Assembly (NCBI GenBank): GCA_016873165.1
Contig: VGXV01000015.1
Coordinates: 38,413 to 78,267, forward strand
From: Planctomycetota bacterium
GTDB taxonomy: Bacteria > Planctomycetota > Brocadiia > Brocadiales > Brocadiaceae
Direction: 5' to 3'
DNA: 39,855 bases
Position numbers and translations under genes: made by a program
Part shown: piece by piece, positions 32,779-39,589 of the stretch
How the letters are laid out: every line of letters begins with the position of its first letter
How positions within the stretch are numbered: position 1 is the stretch's first letter
Notes under the pieces: model-generated
Told to the model about the DNA's origin: nothing
Seen by the model: the letters and a program-made list of their open reading frames with translations, nothing else
Database searches by the model: none

Positions 32779-34386
32779 ATGAAAAAACGAATAGAACCAA
32801 AAAGATACCTTATTTCTTTCGACAGTCATACGCTTTCTCACATCTTTACCGACATACTTGTGGTCGGGAGCGGTGTTGCCGGACTGAGCGCCGCTATCCA
32901 GGCATCAAAGTACAATTCCGTTCTCATCGTTACGAAAGATAAAATTGACGAGAACAATACGACCTATGCGCAAGGCGGCATCGCAGTGGTTTTGTCCCCC
33001 GAAGACGACGTCGTAAAACATAAAACCGATACCTTGACTGCCGGGCAGGGTCTGTGCGACGCATCCGTTGTCGGTATGATTATCTCCGAGGGTTCAAAGC
33101 GGGTGCAGGAAATGATCGGCCTGGGAGCGGAATTTGACAAGGAAAATGATCATTTAATCTTTACACAGGAAGGGGGGCATAGTTTTCCGCGAATAATCCG
33201 CGCCCTTGGTGATTCAACAGGAAGAGAGGTGGAAAACACCCTCATACGTTGCATAAAAAAGGACAAAAACATTAAGGTATTTGAATATACGTATACAATA
33301 GACCTTATTACGGAGGACAACGTTTGTCACGGCATAGTAGCATGGCATCCTAAAAAAGGAACTACACTAATATGGGCGAAACAAACCATTTTGGCTACCG
33401 GGGGGTGCGGACAGGTTTACCGGGAAACAACCAATCCAAACATCGCCACCGGAGACGGACTGGCAATGGCATATCGCGCCGGCGCCGCTCTTCAGGATTT
33501 GGAGTTTGTTCAGTTTCATCCTACAACATTATATATTGCGGGCGCAGTGCGTTTTCTTATTACTGAAACGGTAAGAGGCGAAGGGGGGATATTAAGAAAC
33601 AAGAACGGCGAGAGATTTATGCCAAAATACCACGAGAGAGCCGAGCTTGCTCCAAGGGACGTAGTTAGCCAAAGCATTTTGAGGGAAATGCAAAACACCG
33701 ACCATACACATGTATATCTGGACGTTCGTCATATCCCCAAGAAGAGGCTTTATACCCGATTTCCGAAGATTAAGGAAATTTGTGAGTCGTTCGGCATTGA
33801 TATCTCCAAAGATTTGATTCCTGTGCGGCCAAGCGCACATTATATGATCGGAGGAATAAAGGTAAATCGTTTTTCCATGACAACGGTTAAACAATTATAC
33901 GCATGCGGGGAGGTTGCATGCACGGGAATGCATGGCGCAAACCGACTGGGAAGCAACTCTCTTTTGGAAGGATTGGTTATGGGGAATATTGCCGGAATCG
34001 AAGCCTGTAAATCGGCACAAGGCGTTAAGAGAAAACTTGCCCCGTTTTCAATACATGAAACTTCCGGAGGCTCAAAAACCAGTTGGCTGGATCTGGAAGA
34101 TATCGGGAACTCCCTCAAAAGCCTCATGTGGAGAAATGTCGGAATTGAACGTGACGAAAAACGCCTTCTTCAGGCGGAGGAAATGATAGACATGTGGTGT
34201 AAATATGTAATGGACAAGGAATTTTCAAACCCGTTCGGATGGGAATTGCAGAACATGCTTCTTGTGGCAAGCCTTATTGTTTCATCGGCGAATAAACGCA
34301 AAGAATCCCGCGGCGTTCATCACCGAACCGATTATCCGCAAACCGATGATATTCATTGGAAAAAACATATAGTAGTGGCAAAATAG
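32779..34386 (+). CDS. nadB: L-aspartate oxidase
   Basis: FAD enzyme that oxidises aspartate to iminoaspartate for de novo NAD synthesis. After about 25 extra N-terminal residues comes the FAD motif ILVVGSGVAGLSAAIQA, then TYAQGGIAVVLSPEDD, the substrate loop FTQEGGHSFPRIIRALGDSTGRE, LEFVQFHPT, ETVRGEGG and RPSAHYMIGG, with GMHGANRLGSNSLLEGLVMG near the C-terminus. The 535-residue length fits the family, and the HPT and RP-AHY motifs separate it from fumarate reductases. No Shine-Dalgarno is seen before the ATG, and the gene follows tRNA-Arg by 30 bases, so processing of a joint transcript is likely. Confidence 0.94.
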   Translation: MKKRIEPKRYLISFDSHTLSHIFTDILVVGSGVAGLSAAIQASKYNSVLIVTKDKIDENNTTYAQGGIAVVLSPEDDVVKHKTDTLTAGQGLCDASVVGMIISEGSKRVQEMIGLGAEFDKENDHLIFTQEGGHSFPRIIRALGDSTGREVENTLIRCIKKDKNIKVFEYTYTIDLITEDNVCHGIVAWHPKKGTTLIWAKQTILATGGCGQVYRETTNPNIATGDGLAMAYRAGAALQDLEFVQFHPTTLYIAGAVRFLITETVRGEGGILRNKNGERFMPKYHERAELAPRDVVSQSILREMQNTDHTHVYLDVRHIPKKRLYTRFPKIKEICESFGIDISKDLIPVRPSAHYMIGGIKVNRFSMTTVKQLYACGEVACTGMHGANRLGSNSLLEGLVMGNIAGIEACKSAQGVKRKLAPFSIHETSGGSKTSWLDLEDIGNSLKSLMWRNVGIERDEKRLLQAEEMIDMWCKYVMDKEFSNPFGWELQNMLLVASLIVSSANKRKESRGVHHRTDYPQTDDIHWKKHIVVAK

Positions 34387-34698: not shown

Positions 34699-35112
34699 AT
34701 GAAATTTTCAACGGAATACATCACCTTTCATACGAAAAAGCACAGAGAATTAGTAAATATTACGAACGATGTAGAGAGGATATTGCAAAACAGCGGGATA
34801 AAGGAAGGTATGGCGCTGGTTTCCGCCATGCATATTACCGCAGGAGTTTTTATAAACGATGCTGAATCAGGGCTGCACCGGGACATTGAAGAATGGCTGC
34901 AGAAACTGGCGCCGGAGGGGCCGGATTATTACCACCACAGAACAGGGGAATCCAATGGAGACGCACATCTGAAAAATCTTCTCGTGGGACATCAGGTAAT
35001 AGTTCCTGTGACAAAAGGGAATCTGGATATGGGACCCTGGCAGCAGATATTTTATGCGGAGTTTGATGGTCAACGTAATAAAAGACTGGTTATAAAAATA
35101 ATGGGAGAGTAA
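34699..35112 (+). CDS. yjbQ: YjbQ family protein (UPF0047)
   Basis: A 137-residue protein of the UPF0047 family, whose members have been linked to weak thiamine-phosphate synthase activity; the physiological role is not settled. Seen: the family motif [18 protein letters not shown], then ADHRTGE-like [21 protein letters not shown] and the C-terminal [13 protein letters not shown], with several conserved histidines that may bind metal. It lies 9 bases before the oxidoreductase gene, suggesting co-transcription. Confidence 0.9.
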
Positions 35113-35121
35113 ATTTTTACA

Positions 35122-37206
35122 ATGGTAATGAACAATTCAAAAATGACTGATACAAAATACACCTGTGAAGAAGCGCCGTGTGTTATGGCATGCCCAATCC
35201 GGCAGGATGCGCGTGACTATGTCCAGCTTATCGCAAGGGGTCTTTTTAAGGAGGCGTACCGGCTTGTCAGGGAGAGGAACGTGCTTCCTTCATCATGTGG
35301 CCGCATATGCACCCATCCCTGTGAAACAAAATGCAGAAGGAACAGCACTGACGCGCCAATTGCAATTGCATGGCTCAAACGCTTTCTCAGCGACAACTAT
35401 TCCGAAAAGATTTACACCAAACCGGGCCGCAATTATCCGGAAAAAATTGCAATAATCGGGGCAGGCCCGGCAGGGCTTGCGGCGGCAAATGATTTAGCCC
35501 TTATGGGGTACTCATGCACAATATTTGAATCAAACTCTACCCCGGGCGGCATGCTGCGCATGGGTGTTCCTACCTACCGTTTGCCAAGGAATGCTATTGA
35601 TAAGGATGTTGCGCTCATACAGCAATTAGGGGTGGAAATAAAGTACAACACCACTTTGGGAAAAGACGTTACCCTTGATGGCTTGAAAAAAGAAGGGTAT
35701 GCCGCTATTTTTATCAGTGTGGGGTTGTTTGACAGCCGCAATTTAACCCTAGAGGGAATACAATACGATGGTGTTTTGAAGGGCATCGATTTCTTACGAG
35801 AAGTCAATTCCGCAGGAACTGCCAAAATAGGAAAAAACATATTGGTGATCGGCGGAGGAGCCGTTGCTATGGATTGCGCCAGAACCGCATTGCGGCTCAA
35901 ACCGGAAAAGGTGTCAGTGGCATGCCTTGAGGCACGCAAAGAAATGCCGACCACCGATTTTGAGATAGAAGAAACCCTTCATGAGGGTATCAAACTGTAT
36001 AATTCCGTAGGTCCGAAACGCATTCTGGGAAAAGGGGGAATGGTTACAGGTCTGGAAACGCTCAGGGTAAAATATGTCTTTGATGAACAAAAGCGGTTTA
36101 ATCCTGCTTTTTACGAGGGATCGGAATCCATCATAGAGGCGGACACCATTATTCTCGCAATCGGCCAGACGTCAAATCTCTCCTTCCTGAAGAACCAGGA
36201 GGGTTTGCAGATTTCACGGGGAGGAACCATCATTGCGGACCCAAATACCTTTGCGACCTCGGTTCCAGGAATTTATGCAGGAGGAGATATCGTTCTCGGT
36301 AGAGGCACCCTGACCGAATGCCTTGCACAAGGGAAAAAAGCGGCAATTTCTATTCATAACTCCCTGAGAAACGAAAAGCGAAAAGATGAAAAATGGGCTG
36401 ATAAACCTGAGGTGCAGAAAATGGCGGATTCAAGAGTCCCCCTCGTGAAAAAAGAGCAGAAACAGGACATGCCCATGCTGTCTCTAGGTGAAAGATTAAA
36501 TTCTTTTGATGAGGTGGAATTGGGATTTTCGCATGAAATTGCCGTAAGGGAAGCACAGCGCTGTATGAATTGCGGCGCCGGGGCATTTGTTGACGAAAAT
36601 ATATGCATCGGCTGCATTACCTGCGTGAGGGTGTGCCCTTTTGACGTTCCGGAGTTCAGAAAGGGAGAAACAACAGCTTACATTGGCGGAGACTGCCAGT
36701 CGTGTGGTTTGTGCATAGTAGAGTGTCCCGCAAAGGCAATCAGCTTCAAAACTCCTTTGGAAGACCGCGGCAGAGAGAGATTGAAAACCCTTTTTGCGGA
36801 AAAATCAATCAAAAACACAAAGCCGTTAATCGTCAATTTTTACTGTCAGTATGGTTCTTTAAGCGGCAATACCAAAAGTAATGCTGTCGTAGAGAAGCAT
36901 GTGAAACGTATCGGCATTTTGGGGCTTGGAAAGGTAGATCCTTCATTATATCTCAATGCCCTTGAATGGGGCGCCGATGGCGTTTTGATAACCGCCTGCA
37001 AAGAGGACGGATGCCACTTCTGCGCGGAATATGACTGGATAAAAAAACGGTCAGAATACGTTGGAAAAATCTTAAAAGAACTGGGAATGGATTCCAGAAT
37101 ATTCCAGACACATTTTATTTCGTCACAAACGGATACTGCTTTCCTTGATATAGCAACGCAGATGGTAAAAGATGTTGAGAGTGTGATATCGGTAAATAAG
37201 TCATAA
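35122..37206 (+). CDS. GltD-like FAD/NAD(P) oxidoreductase with ferredoxin and MvhD-like domains
   Basis: Multi-domain electron-transfer protein, 694 residues. It begins with an N-terminal Fer4_20-like region with cysteines in CVMACP and CGRICTHPCETKC. Then come two nucleotide-binding folds, one with AIIGAGPAGLAAAND near residue 110 (FAD) and one with LVIGGGAVAMDCARTA near 240 (NAD(P)H). These are followed by two 4Fe-4S motifs between about 480 and 545 (CIGCITCVRVCP and CQSCGLCIVECP). The C-terminal domain (about 565-690) resembles MvhD/FlpD of hydrogenase-heterodisulfide reductase systems, with CKEDGCHFCAEYD. GltD domains take electrons from NAD(P)H, and MvhD passes them between Fe-S proteins. 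Next to metV, the likely job is reducing methylene-tetrahydrofolate reductase; this is inference. Confidence 0.88.
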   Translation: MVMNNSKMTDTKYTCEEAPCVMACPIRQDARDYVQLIARGLFKEAYRLVRERNVLPSSCGRICTHPCETKCRRNSTDAPIAIAWLKRFLSDNYSEKIYTKPGRNYPEKIAIIGAGPAGLAAANDLALMGYSCTIFESNSTPGGMLRMGVPTYRLPRNAIDKDVALIQQLGVEIKYNTTLGKDVTLDGLKKEGYAAIFISVGLFDSRNLTLEGIQYDGVLKGIDFLREVNSAGTAKIGKNILVIGGGAVAMDCARTALRLKPEKVSVACLEARKEMPTTDFEIEETLHEGIKLYNSVGPKRILGKGGMVTGLETLRVKYVFDEQKRFNPAFYEGSESIIEADTIILAIGQTSNLSFLKNQEGLQISRGGTIIADPNTFATSVPGIYAGGDIVLGRGTLTECLAQGKKAAISIHNSLRNEKRKDEKWADKPEVQKMADSRVPLVKKEQKQDMPMLSLGERLNSFDEVELGFSHEIAVREAQRCMNCGAGAFVDENICIGCITCVRVCPFDVPEFRKGETTAYIGGDCQSCGLCIVECPAKAISFKTPLEDRGRERLKTLFAEKSIKNTKPLIVNFYCQYGSLSGNTKSNAVVEKHVKRIGILGLGKVDPSLYLNALEWGADGVLITACKEDGCHFCAEYDWIKKRSEYVGKILKELGMDSRIFQTHFISSQTDTAFLDIATQMVKDVESVISVNKS

Positions 37207-37246
37207 ACCAGACGATGAAATTTTTTTCATAAAAGGATAAAGAAAA

Positions 37247-37924
37247 ATGATTGTCGCTGATTCAAAACCGTTTCAGGAAATAGAGCAAATGCTCTCTGAG
37301 TATAAAAAGGTGTATATTGTCGGATGCGGTTCATGCGTTACCATATGCCATACCGGCGGTGAAAAACAGGTGGCGGAGCTTGCTTCGAAAATCAGGCTTG
37401 CCGCAAAATTAAAGGGGAAGGCCATTGAAGTAATAGAAGATTCCATCCTCCGGCAATGTGAGTGGGAATTTATAGAAGAGGCAAAAGATGTAGTTGCCGA
37501 CTGTGACGCGGTTTTATCCCTTGCCTGCGGCATCGGCGTGCAATATATGGCGGAAAGATTCCCGAACGCAAGGGTATTTCCCGGACTGAACACAACATTC
37601 ATGGGCGCCCCTACGGAACAAGGGGTCTTCTGGGAACGCTGCGCCGGTTGTGGTAATTGCATCATTGGCTCTACCGGCGGGCTATGCCCCGTAAGCCGAT
37701 GCGCAAAAAGCCTTTTAAACGGACCCTGCGGCGGTTCACAAAACGGGAACTGTGAGATTTCAAATGAAACCCCATGCGTCTGGAACCAGATATACGATCA
37801 GCTTGACACACAACAATTACTATCAACCATGGAAAATATCACCCCACCGAAAGACTGGCGCACCGGAGCGGAAAATCACCCCAGAAAGATGGTGCTGGAA
37901 CATCTGGTGATGAAAAAGGAATAA
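37247..37924 (+). CDS. metV: MetV-type protein (methylenetetrahydrofolate reductase C-terminal domain)
   Basis: A 225-residue Cys-rich protein of the MTHFR C-terminal domain family, known in acetogens as MetV, which binds MetF and carries Fe-S or zinc sites. Cysteine motifs: CGSCVTICHTGG at the N-terminus, DAVLSLACGIGVQYM, and a dense C-terminal cluster CAGCGNCIIG, GLCPVSRCAKSLLNGPCGG and NCEISNETPCVW. The 41-bp gap from the oxidoreductase and the shared orientation point to a joint unit. The gene that usually goes with it, metF, does not follow; accessory DNA begins 30 bases downstream. Confidence 0.85.
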   Translation: MIVADSKPFQEIEQMLSEYKKVYIVGCGSCVTICHTGGEKQVAELASKIRLAAKLKGKAIEVIEDSILRQCEWEFIEEAKDVVADCDAVLSLACGIGVQYMAERFPNARVFPGLNTTFMGAPTEQGVFWERCAGCGNCIIGSTGGLCPVSRCAKSLLNGPCGGSQNGNCEISNETPCVWNQIYDQLDTQQLLSTMENITPPKDWRTGAENHPRKMVLEHLVMKKE

Positions 37925-38405: not shown

Positions 38406-38771
38406 CTATTGTTCTCTATAAAGAATGTTCAGTTTAGAACTAACGGTGATCAACTGTTTATCAGCCGTCCACAATAAAGTATTAGTCAACAATGAAGACG
38501 CCAATAAATGCACATCAATAAGCCCAATCCCTATGCCCATTAATTTTCTATTCTCAATAAAATGCAGAATCTCATCGTTCTCAACAGTTCGTGCTTTCGG
38601 AAGAGACCTTAGCAATGAAATTATCTCTTCTCTATTTTTGAGATGTCCGCATGCCAACTCACCGATTATAAATGGATGACAAACAACCAGCTCATCCAAT
38701 AATAATTTCTGAAGATGTGAATTCCCTTCCCGGAAGTGAGATATCCAGATTGAAGTATCAACAAGAATCAT
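38406..38771 (-). CDS. vapC: VapC-type PIN-domain toxin ribonuclease
   Basis: A 121-residue PIN-domain protein. VapC toxins cut RNA and are neutralised by the VapB partner. The four acidic metal ligands are visible: Asp5 (MILVDTSIWI), Glu38 (IIGELACG), Asp86 (GLIDVHLLA) and Asp104 (WTADKQL). The length is normal. It starts two bases after the antitoxin stop, and the attC-like site follows its own stop by only eight bases, the tight gene-attC arrangement of an integron cassette. Confidence 0.92.
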   Translation of the reverse strand: MILVDTSIWISHFREGNSHLQKLLLDELVVCHPFIIGELACGHLKNREEIISLLRSLPKARTVENDEILHFIENRKLMGIGIGLIDVHLLASSLLTNTLLWTADKQLITVSSKLNILYREQ

Positions 38772-39211: not shown

Positions 39212-39589
39212 ATGCAGGCGATTTTTGCAAAGGGCGATCAGCGTACGGTCAATAAACTTCTAACGCTTCGCAAAGAGGTATTGAAAGACTATCAGTACCG
39301 CGCGGCAACACGAATGCACGCAATCATTCTCAGTATAGAAAAGAATACATCAGGGGACATAGCAAACATATTAAAAGTCAACCGTACCAATGTCCCTCTC
39401 TGGATTAACAACTGGAATTCTTATGGGACAGAAGGTTTATTGGAAGGACATCGCAGTGGGCGCAAAAGCAATCTCATGGCAGAGGATAGAGAAAAGCTGT
39501 GTGATATTCTTGAGAGCGGACCCGTTTCGTATGGGTTGAACACTGGTGTATGGACTTCCAAGATTATAACAGGGCTAAGTCAAATATAA
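39212..39589 (+). pseudogene. Truncated IS630-family transposase (N-terminal part)
   Basis: Starts with AAGGGGGGG five bases upstream of the ATG. The 125 residues hold the helix-turn-helix DNA-binding half of an IS630-type transposase: RAATRMHAIILS, SGDIANILKVNRTNVPLWIN, GTEGLLEGHRSGRKSNL and the linker up to GVWTSKIIT. It then runs into GLSQI and a stop. The DDE catalytic domain (about 200 residues) is absent, so it cannot transpose by itself. Confidence 0.82.

Follow-up and report, generated by a model that had tools for sequence, protein, structure and literature searches.

How methylene-tetrahydrofolate (methylene-THF) reductase receives its electrons is the question raised by a gene pair in a Planctomycetota bacterium of the order Brocadiales (assembly GCA_016873165.1, contig VGXV01000015.1). 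The window, i.e., the whole analysed stretch of 39,855 nucleotides, carries a gene for a GltD-ferredoxin-MvhD fusion protein, directly followed by a metV-like gene. Judged from sequence comparisons and gene order, the fusion is probably the subunit that oxidises NADH and brings electrons into a methylene-THF reductase of the MetVF type, one that would work without HdrABC. Published work is cited here by PMC number, in each case from excerpts of the text. The two genes and the parts of the fusion are as follows:

35122..37206, + strand: GltD-ferredoxin-MvhD fusion gene, ATG start, open reading frame (ORF) of 694 amino acids (aa).
35161..35406, + strand: Fer4_20 domain at the fusion N-terminus, residues 14-95, with the Cys residues of two GltD-type [4Fe-4S] clusters (Pfam, alignments).
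35377..35379, + strand: Lys86 of the fusion, equivalent to StnC Lys170 and to a Glu in NfnB (alignments, PMC10482914).
35443..36315, + strand: FAD/NAD(P)H module, Pyr_redox_2, residues 108-398 (Pfam, Foldseek/VIA-align).
35917..35949, + strand: nucleotide loop VACLEARKEMP, residues 266-276, with acidic Glu270 as in Moorella stamsii HdrA (alignment).
36559..36573, + strand: RCMNC motif, residues 480-484, a CxxC C-terminal of the FAD module (permuted) (alignments).
36583..36744, + strand: two-[4Fe-4S] ferredoxin domain (Fer4 dicluster), residues 488-541, resembling the HdrA C-terminal arm (Pfam, NCBIfam, sequence comparison).
36841..37182, + strand: MvhD (FlpD) domain, residues 574-687, with an altered Cys pattern (Pfam, alignment).
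37247..37924, + strand: metV-like gene, 225 aa, with DUF5981 (MetV C-terminal domain) at residues 111-205, E 2.8e-35 (Pfam).

The Pfam domains of the ORF confirm that one polypeptide joins an FAD-NAD(P)H module of the GltD/NfnB type to ferredoxin (dicluster) and MvhD (FlpD) domains, as a sequence-only reading of this DNA had described in terms of NAD(P)H- and FAD-binding folds, ferredoxin clusters and an MvhD-like domain. The nearest NCBIfam model for residues 10-542 is PRK12771 (NAD(P)-binding GltD-like family), with 462 bits and thus below the model cut-off of 516, and residues 487-691 fall on positions 571-774 of HdrA2 (NCBIfam). The Pfam search found no NuoG/molybdopterin domain in the fusion. 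The same reading correctly placed metV downstream in the same direction; the spacer (37207-37246) measures 40 bp rather than the 41 bp it gave.

Counterparts of each part were identified in Moorella. Compared with the 1488-aa HdrA of Moorella stamsii (L079), the GltD module matches HdrA residues 163-643 with 46% identity, and the ferredoxin domain matches residues 1409-1487, the C-terminal arm, with 42% identity. The MvhD domain shares 26% identity (E 3e-14) with the mvhD product encoded after this HdrA, where the gene order is HdrA-mvhD-metV-metF. The HdrA core, i.e., the TrxR-like FAD domain, is absent from the fusion in the alignment to M. stamsii HdrA, a separate HdrA gene in the window genome never having been searched for. 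In its make-up the fusion resembles a Moorella-type HdrA reduced to its GltD module and ferredoxin arm, without the HdrA core, and joined to MvhD. GltD insertion in HdrA is already known (PMC9430772), and HdrA/NfnB fusions are known in anaerobic methanotrophic archaea (ANME; PMC9012536).

The window genome (G000; 4.05 Mb, 191 contigs, rated 100% complete) has the fusion as its only FlpD match and the window metV as its only DUF5981 match. A search for metF elsewhere in the genome, as the sequence-only reading had proposed, yielded a single MTHFR-family match, at G000:C7:93914-94801 and away from the fusion. The genome therefore holds the genes of a MetVF-type system, metV in the window and a single metF elsewhere, which are contiguous in relatives. 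Its sole CCG protein is 410 aa long with Fer4_8 and two CCG domains, and we take it to be of the GlcF/HdrD type rather than HdrB. The CCG search gave only this protein and no HdrB (two CCG domains, ~300 aa), HdrA itself never having been searched for. With no second MvhD and only a GlcF/HdrD-like CCG protein in the genome, HdrABC looks dispensable, as had been suggested.

Across 62 genomes of the order, metV was found in 56, metF in 54 and FlpD in 55. A fusion was counted when the FlpD match lay in a frame >600 aa, and neighbours when they lay within 4 kb on the same strand. The fusion is present in 52 genomes, 49 of which hold metV and 50 metF, in line with the co-occurrence that had been put forward as a check. 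Fusion, metV and metF stand in a row in 30 genomes, which supports the earlier proposal that the fusion belongs with MetV and MetF. Six genomes have fusion-metV with metF not next to it; metF is elsewhere in five, including all three genomes of the window genus. Fusion-metF occurs in 13 genomes, all of family f3, with metV on another contig in 11 and no metV match in 2, and one genome (58% complete) has the fusion alone. Each pairwise adjacency (fusion-metV, metV-metF, fusion-metF) is seen in some lineage. Because 49 of the 52 fusion genomes have metV and/or metF beside the fusion in the same direction, the fusion-metV arrangement is more than chance. Among the ten genomes that lack the fusion, three show metV and metF as neighbours (metV beginning <600 bases from the first base of the contig in two), one has both on different contigs, three have metV only and three neither. 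In f3 genomes such as G321, G331 and G292, metV, where found together with fusion-metF, lies apart from it, and standalone mvhD genes and CCG frames of HdrB size lie on the same contig. A heterodisulfide-reductase-like cluster has been reported for Scalindua profunda (PMC3655542).

The sequence-only reading had remarked that the usual metF is not downstream, and this is borne out. No metF or metF remnant was found in the window (tblastn best E 6.3), and its absence downstream of fusion-metV is a peculiarity of the window genus (3/3 genomes examined). In the single-contig genome of a congener (G088) the fusion and metF lie ~200 kb apart, and the split is therefore not an assembly artefact.

Outside the order, fusion-metV-metF also occurs in G275 of the same class, in two other planctomycetes (G011 and G208), and, among the best 80 of 359 relatives in a scan of named genomes, in Phycisphaerales (L075) and in metagenome-assembled genomes (MAGs) of Coriobacteriia (L077) and Chloroflexota (L080). 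All six fusion loci with enough downstream DNA run on into metV and metF; the contigs of L076 and L074 stop inside metV and directly after the fusion, respectively. L077 has the gene order acsB-cdhD-fusion-metV-metF-CbiA-type ATPase-pterin-binding gene, i.e., the fusion lies inside a carbon monoxide dehydrogenase/acetyl-CoA synthase (CODH/ACS) cluster, and in G208 folD begins 12 bp 3' of metF. A check for GltD-MvhD fusions unlinked to metV drew on FlpD frames of ~590-770 aa outside the order, and none of those read contained another fusion with a full GltD module. They include 15 further planctomycete stretches (FlpD frames ~600-760 aa), where no MvhD-bearing protein has such a module.

MetV also has other neighbours. 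From a phylum sample of 294 genomes, 26 MetV-type loci outside the order were taken (frames <=340 aa, E <1e-27; weaker matches excluded). An MvhD match lies directly upstream in 15 and none in 11; the 15 comprise three GltD fusions, three frames of 200-600 aa and nine frames <200 aa. One locus (L171) encodes a Moorella-like HdrA with a GltD module, followed by mvhD and metV-metF; L167 has an HdrA-like frame without the GltD module in the same position, and in L170 the contig ends within the HdrA frame, with mvhD and then metV-metF. Ferredoxin-MvhD fusions precede metV-metF in L168 and L169; the planctomycete protein L169:2665-3831 (388 aa) has two ferredoxin and two MvhD stretches. In a Deltaproteobacteria MAG and a Desulfobacterales MAG, proteins with the GltD module in the C-terminal half lie directly before metV (L090:679-3876, 1065 aa, then metF; L111:4324-7467, 1047 aa, contig ending in metV), possibly another form of MetV input. 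A plasmid collection gave 142 records, all <60% identical to the fusion, and the three rows listed stop at residue 586-592, short of most of the MvhD domain. In the tree, 19 of 20 fusion rows group together with one long outsider (weak support, 82/80) and L080 is placed elsewhere (99/96), so the tree neither establishes nor rules out that the fusion arose only once.

NADH is the likely donor among the NAD(P)H electrons that had been proposed. The window loop VACLEARKEMP corresponds to LACLESRQEMP in M. stamsii HdrA, and HdrA is the NADH oxidation site in M. thermoacetica (PMC8760232, PMC9430772), with MetF as the site of methylene-THF reduction (PMC8760232). Because the HdrA of S. ovata, in which the GltD domain is missing, shows an NADH:viologen activity of 0.5 U/mg versus 190 in Moorella (PMC9430772), the GltD module is by analogy the likely NADH entry. 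Residues were surveyed in 34 distinct fusions (35 entries, of which L002 duplicates the window and was not counted). The loop has the acidic LE form in 27, a YRR form in four (L048, L049, L050 and L080) and is unmatched by the pattern in three. The YRR form is that of NADPH-binding 8oh5_C, and we infer that E in the loop would mark NADH and R NADPH specificity.

Standalone MvhD rows came out misaligned in a trial alignment, and four rows were removed ahead of structure modelling. The fusion model (29-row alignment) has a mean predicted local distance difference test score (pLDDT) of 83.7 and a predicted template modelling score (pTM) of 0.74, with pLDDT <50 at residues 1-15, 424-438, 486-496, 516-544 and 580-583. 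Its best solved matches (VIA) are 9bov_A (Z 44.1, 2.4 Å, 460 residues), 8oh5_C (43.3) and 9n5v_A (42.1), followed by Nfn L subunits (35-36); this comparison tested residues 15-426 well, and those alone. A viral fold library gave only generic matches. MetV modelled alone was useless (pLDDT 38), and no solved structure matching MetV was found in searches at E 0.001 and E 1.

In the proposed mechanism, the FAD in the GltD module would oxidise NADH, and electrons would travel along the two [4Fe-4S] clusters of this module and then the ferredoxin-domain pair to the MvhD domain, the part that would dock on MetV/MetF. The MetV Fe-S clusters would then deliver them to the MetF flavin, where methylene-THF would be reduced to methyl-THF, the product serving the Wood-Ljungdahl pathway of anammox bacteria. 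Strep-tagged MvhD pulls down MetF in Sporomusa ovata (PMC9430772), so the MvhD domain would by analogy be the natural docking piece. The MetVF of Acetobacterium woodii does not use NADH without RnfC2 (PMC8760232), and NADH would most likely feed MetVF linearly via the fusion, as via RnfC2 in type III enzymes (PMC8760232). We infer formation of a fusion-MetV-MetF complex, NADH specificity, linear (non-bifurcating) flow, direction and activity from these comparisons.

Several observations weigh against this reading. The sequence-only reading had named fusion genomes without any metF or C1 pathway as a refutation, and the outcome is mixed; metF does accompany the fusion in 50 of 52, but G309 (rated 96% complete) has fusion-metV with no metF match, and some genomes outside the order gave no acetyl-CoA synthase match, as discussed below. 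In two genomes of family f94 the fusion is unlinked. The Moorella complex alone did not catalyse NADH-dependent methylene-THF reduction (PMC8760232), and the NADH biochemistry was done with M. thermoacetica, while the HdrA compared here is that of M. stamsii. The four YRR loops are NADPH-like. In the MvhD domains of 15 family-f1 fusions, the pCsG Cys of canonical MvhD is lost, three Cys are kept and a CHFC Cys is gained, which makes the cluster of the f1 domain uncertain; two f2 domains (L049, L050) keep the four canonical Cys. In the ferredoxin domain the structure model has low confidence (pLDDT <50 at 516-544).

One alternative, which we consider unlikely, is that the complex serves methionine or methyl supply, or methyl-THF oxidation, instead of CO2 fixation. 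Among eight further fusion genomes, CdhC (acetyl-CoA synthase) was matched in those of G011, L077 and L080, and gave no match in five (G275, G208, L074, L075 and L076). The fusion is not always accompanied by acetyl-CoA synthase, and its role in those five genomes may therefore be biosynthetic or reversed. G275 is rated 96% complete; G208, however, is rated 82% complete, and L076 belongs to a genome of 1.5 Mb. Within the order CdhC is found in 56 of 62 genomes, among them the window genome (one match), and the CODH/ACS setting of the L077 fusion also argues against this alternative.

Bifurcation, raised as a possibility by the sequence-only reading, is likewise improbable. Two NADH would reduce methylene-THF (high-potential, via MetVF) and ferredoxin (low-potential) at the GltD flavin, yielding reduced ferredoxin for anammox cells. 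GltD is indeed the fold of bifurcating NfnB, the closest solved structures (9bov, 8oh5, 9n5u) are subunits of bifurcating complexes, and the Moorella Hdr-type enzyme, which does not by itself drive methylene-THF reduction with NADH, has been proposed to bifurcate (PMC9430772, PMC8760232). The residues at the proximal cluster point the other way. Lys occupies the Lys86 position in 34/34 distinct fusions (30/35 entries by pattern, five by eye including the duplicate), whereas the Nfn L subunits 4ylf_B and 5jca_L have Glu in the alignment. StnC Lys170 ligates the proximal cluster in one StnC state, NfnB has Glu, and StnC has lost bifurcation (PMC10482914). Because all 34 fusions carry the StnC-type Lys and not the NfnB-type Glu, a linear module, and with it linear flow from NADH to methylene-THF, is favoured. 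The fusion lacks the HdrA core, FAD domain included, and the type III RnfC2-MetVF enzyme is NADH-driven without bifurcation (PMC8760232). It appears rather doubtful that this is an HdrABC-free flavin-bifurcating methylene-THF reductase coupling NADH-driven methyl-THF formation to ferredoxin reduction; if it were, anammox bacteria would gain from it low-potential electrons for reducing CO2.

It is also quite unlikely that the dicluster takes electrons from reduced ferredoxin for MetVF while the GltD module only balances them with NAD(P)H, i.e., that the fusion is a ferredoxin:NAD(P) oxidoreductase tied to MetVF. MetVF enzymes do take reduced ferredoxin in vitro (PMC8760232), and a dicluster ferredoxin domain is present. 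This domain, however, matches the HdrA C-terminal arm (42%), which carries electrons inward from MvhD in Hdr-Mvh complexes (PMC9012536), so internal wiring is more likely, and energetics are argued to oppose ferredoxin as donor in acetogens (PMC8760232). An unrelated NAD(P)H oxidoreductase merely neighbouring metV is strongly disfavoured: metF has moved away in the window genus and the f94 fusions are unlinked, but the linkage spans families and phyla, and the fusion matches the electron-input proteins of the Moorella enzyme domain by domain.

Two further genes precede the fusion in the window:

32779-34386, + strand: nadB.
34699-35112, + strand: yjbQ (UPF0047, secondary thiamine-phosphate synthase family).

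These genes, the fusion and metV are all on the + strand, and a domain search of their four products found no RnfC domain. The yjbQ gene ends 9 bp upstream of the fusion; it precedes the fusion in 14/14 family-f1 loci fetched, with nadB within the same stretch in 11/14. Downstream of metV, where many relatives have metF, the window has a PIN-domain gene (38406-38771, - strand) and a short helix-turn-helix (HTH) frame (39212-39589, + strand) resembling part of a transposase. A promoter/terminator scan gave sites no more numerous than in shuffled sequence. Hydrazine synthase alpha (PF18582) was matched in 40/62 genomes of the order and 0/14 control genomes; it had no match in the window genome, though both congeners examined were positive. 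Because several relatives carry two copies, an assembly gap is likely in this genome despite its completeness rating. We read the host as an anammox bacterium, its order being that of Brocadia and Kuenenia.

Four types of methylene-THF reductase are distinguished in the literature, MetF, MetVF, MetVF-RnfC2 and MetVF-HdrABC-MvhD (PMC8760232, PMC9430772), and the fusion arrangement fits none of them. No description of this GltD-MvhD fusion, or of MetV with MvhD in anammox bacteria, was found in the open PMC texts searched, and the excerpts of anammox papers name methylene-THF reductase and not its electron-feeding protein (PMC3655542, PMC6828613, PMC12213060). The proposed HdrABC-free architecture of the MetVF-type enzyme is apparently undescribed. 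If the proposed reading is true, it would be a fifth architecture beside the four types, and the NADH module of the Moorella complex would be able to work without the HdrABC core. The fusion, MetV and MetF form a concrete, expressible three-protein candidate for the electron feed of the anammox enzyme, a small system that could serve to distinguish linear from bifurcating methylene-THF reduction.

Among known systems, type IV (MetVF-HdrABC-MvhD of M. thermoacetica and S. ovata) shares MetV, MetF and MvhD with this system and, in Moorella, also the GltD NADH module and the HdrA ferredoxin arm. It differs in that one polypeptide here unites GltD, the ferredoxin arm and MvhD, the fused FlpD domain with its altered Cys pattern taking the place of MvhD, while the fusion lacks the HdrA core and the window genome an HdrB-like gene. 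Type III (MetVF-RnfC2 of A. woodii), compared by its description in excerpts of PMC8760232 only, would share an added NADH module feeding MetVF linearly, with GltD-ferredoxin-MvhD in place of RnfC. The StnC/NfnABC A-subunits (8oh5, 9bov, 9n5u) have the same permuted GltD module with a C-terminal RCxxC (VIA Z 41-44 within residues 1-492), and StnC has Lys at the proximal-cluster position; in StnC, however, a NuoG-like domain follows and the partner is a bifurcating module of the HydBC type (PMC10482914), whereas the fusion has ferredoxin-MvhD and MetVF. Bifurcating NfnB (NfnL) shares the GltD fold, FAD and two [4Fe-4S] clusters (VIA Z 35-36) and differs in its NfnA partner, in the Glu at the Lys86 position and in the RCxxC motif, which opens the Nfn L subunits near the N-terminus and lies behind the FAD module in the fusion, StnC and 9bov.

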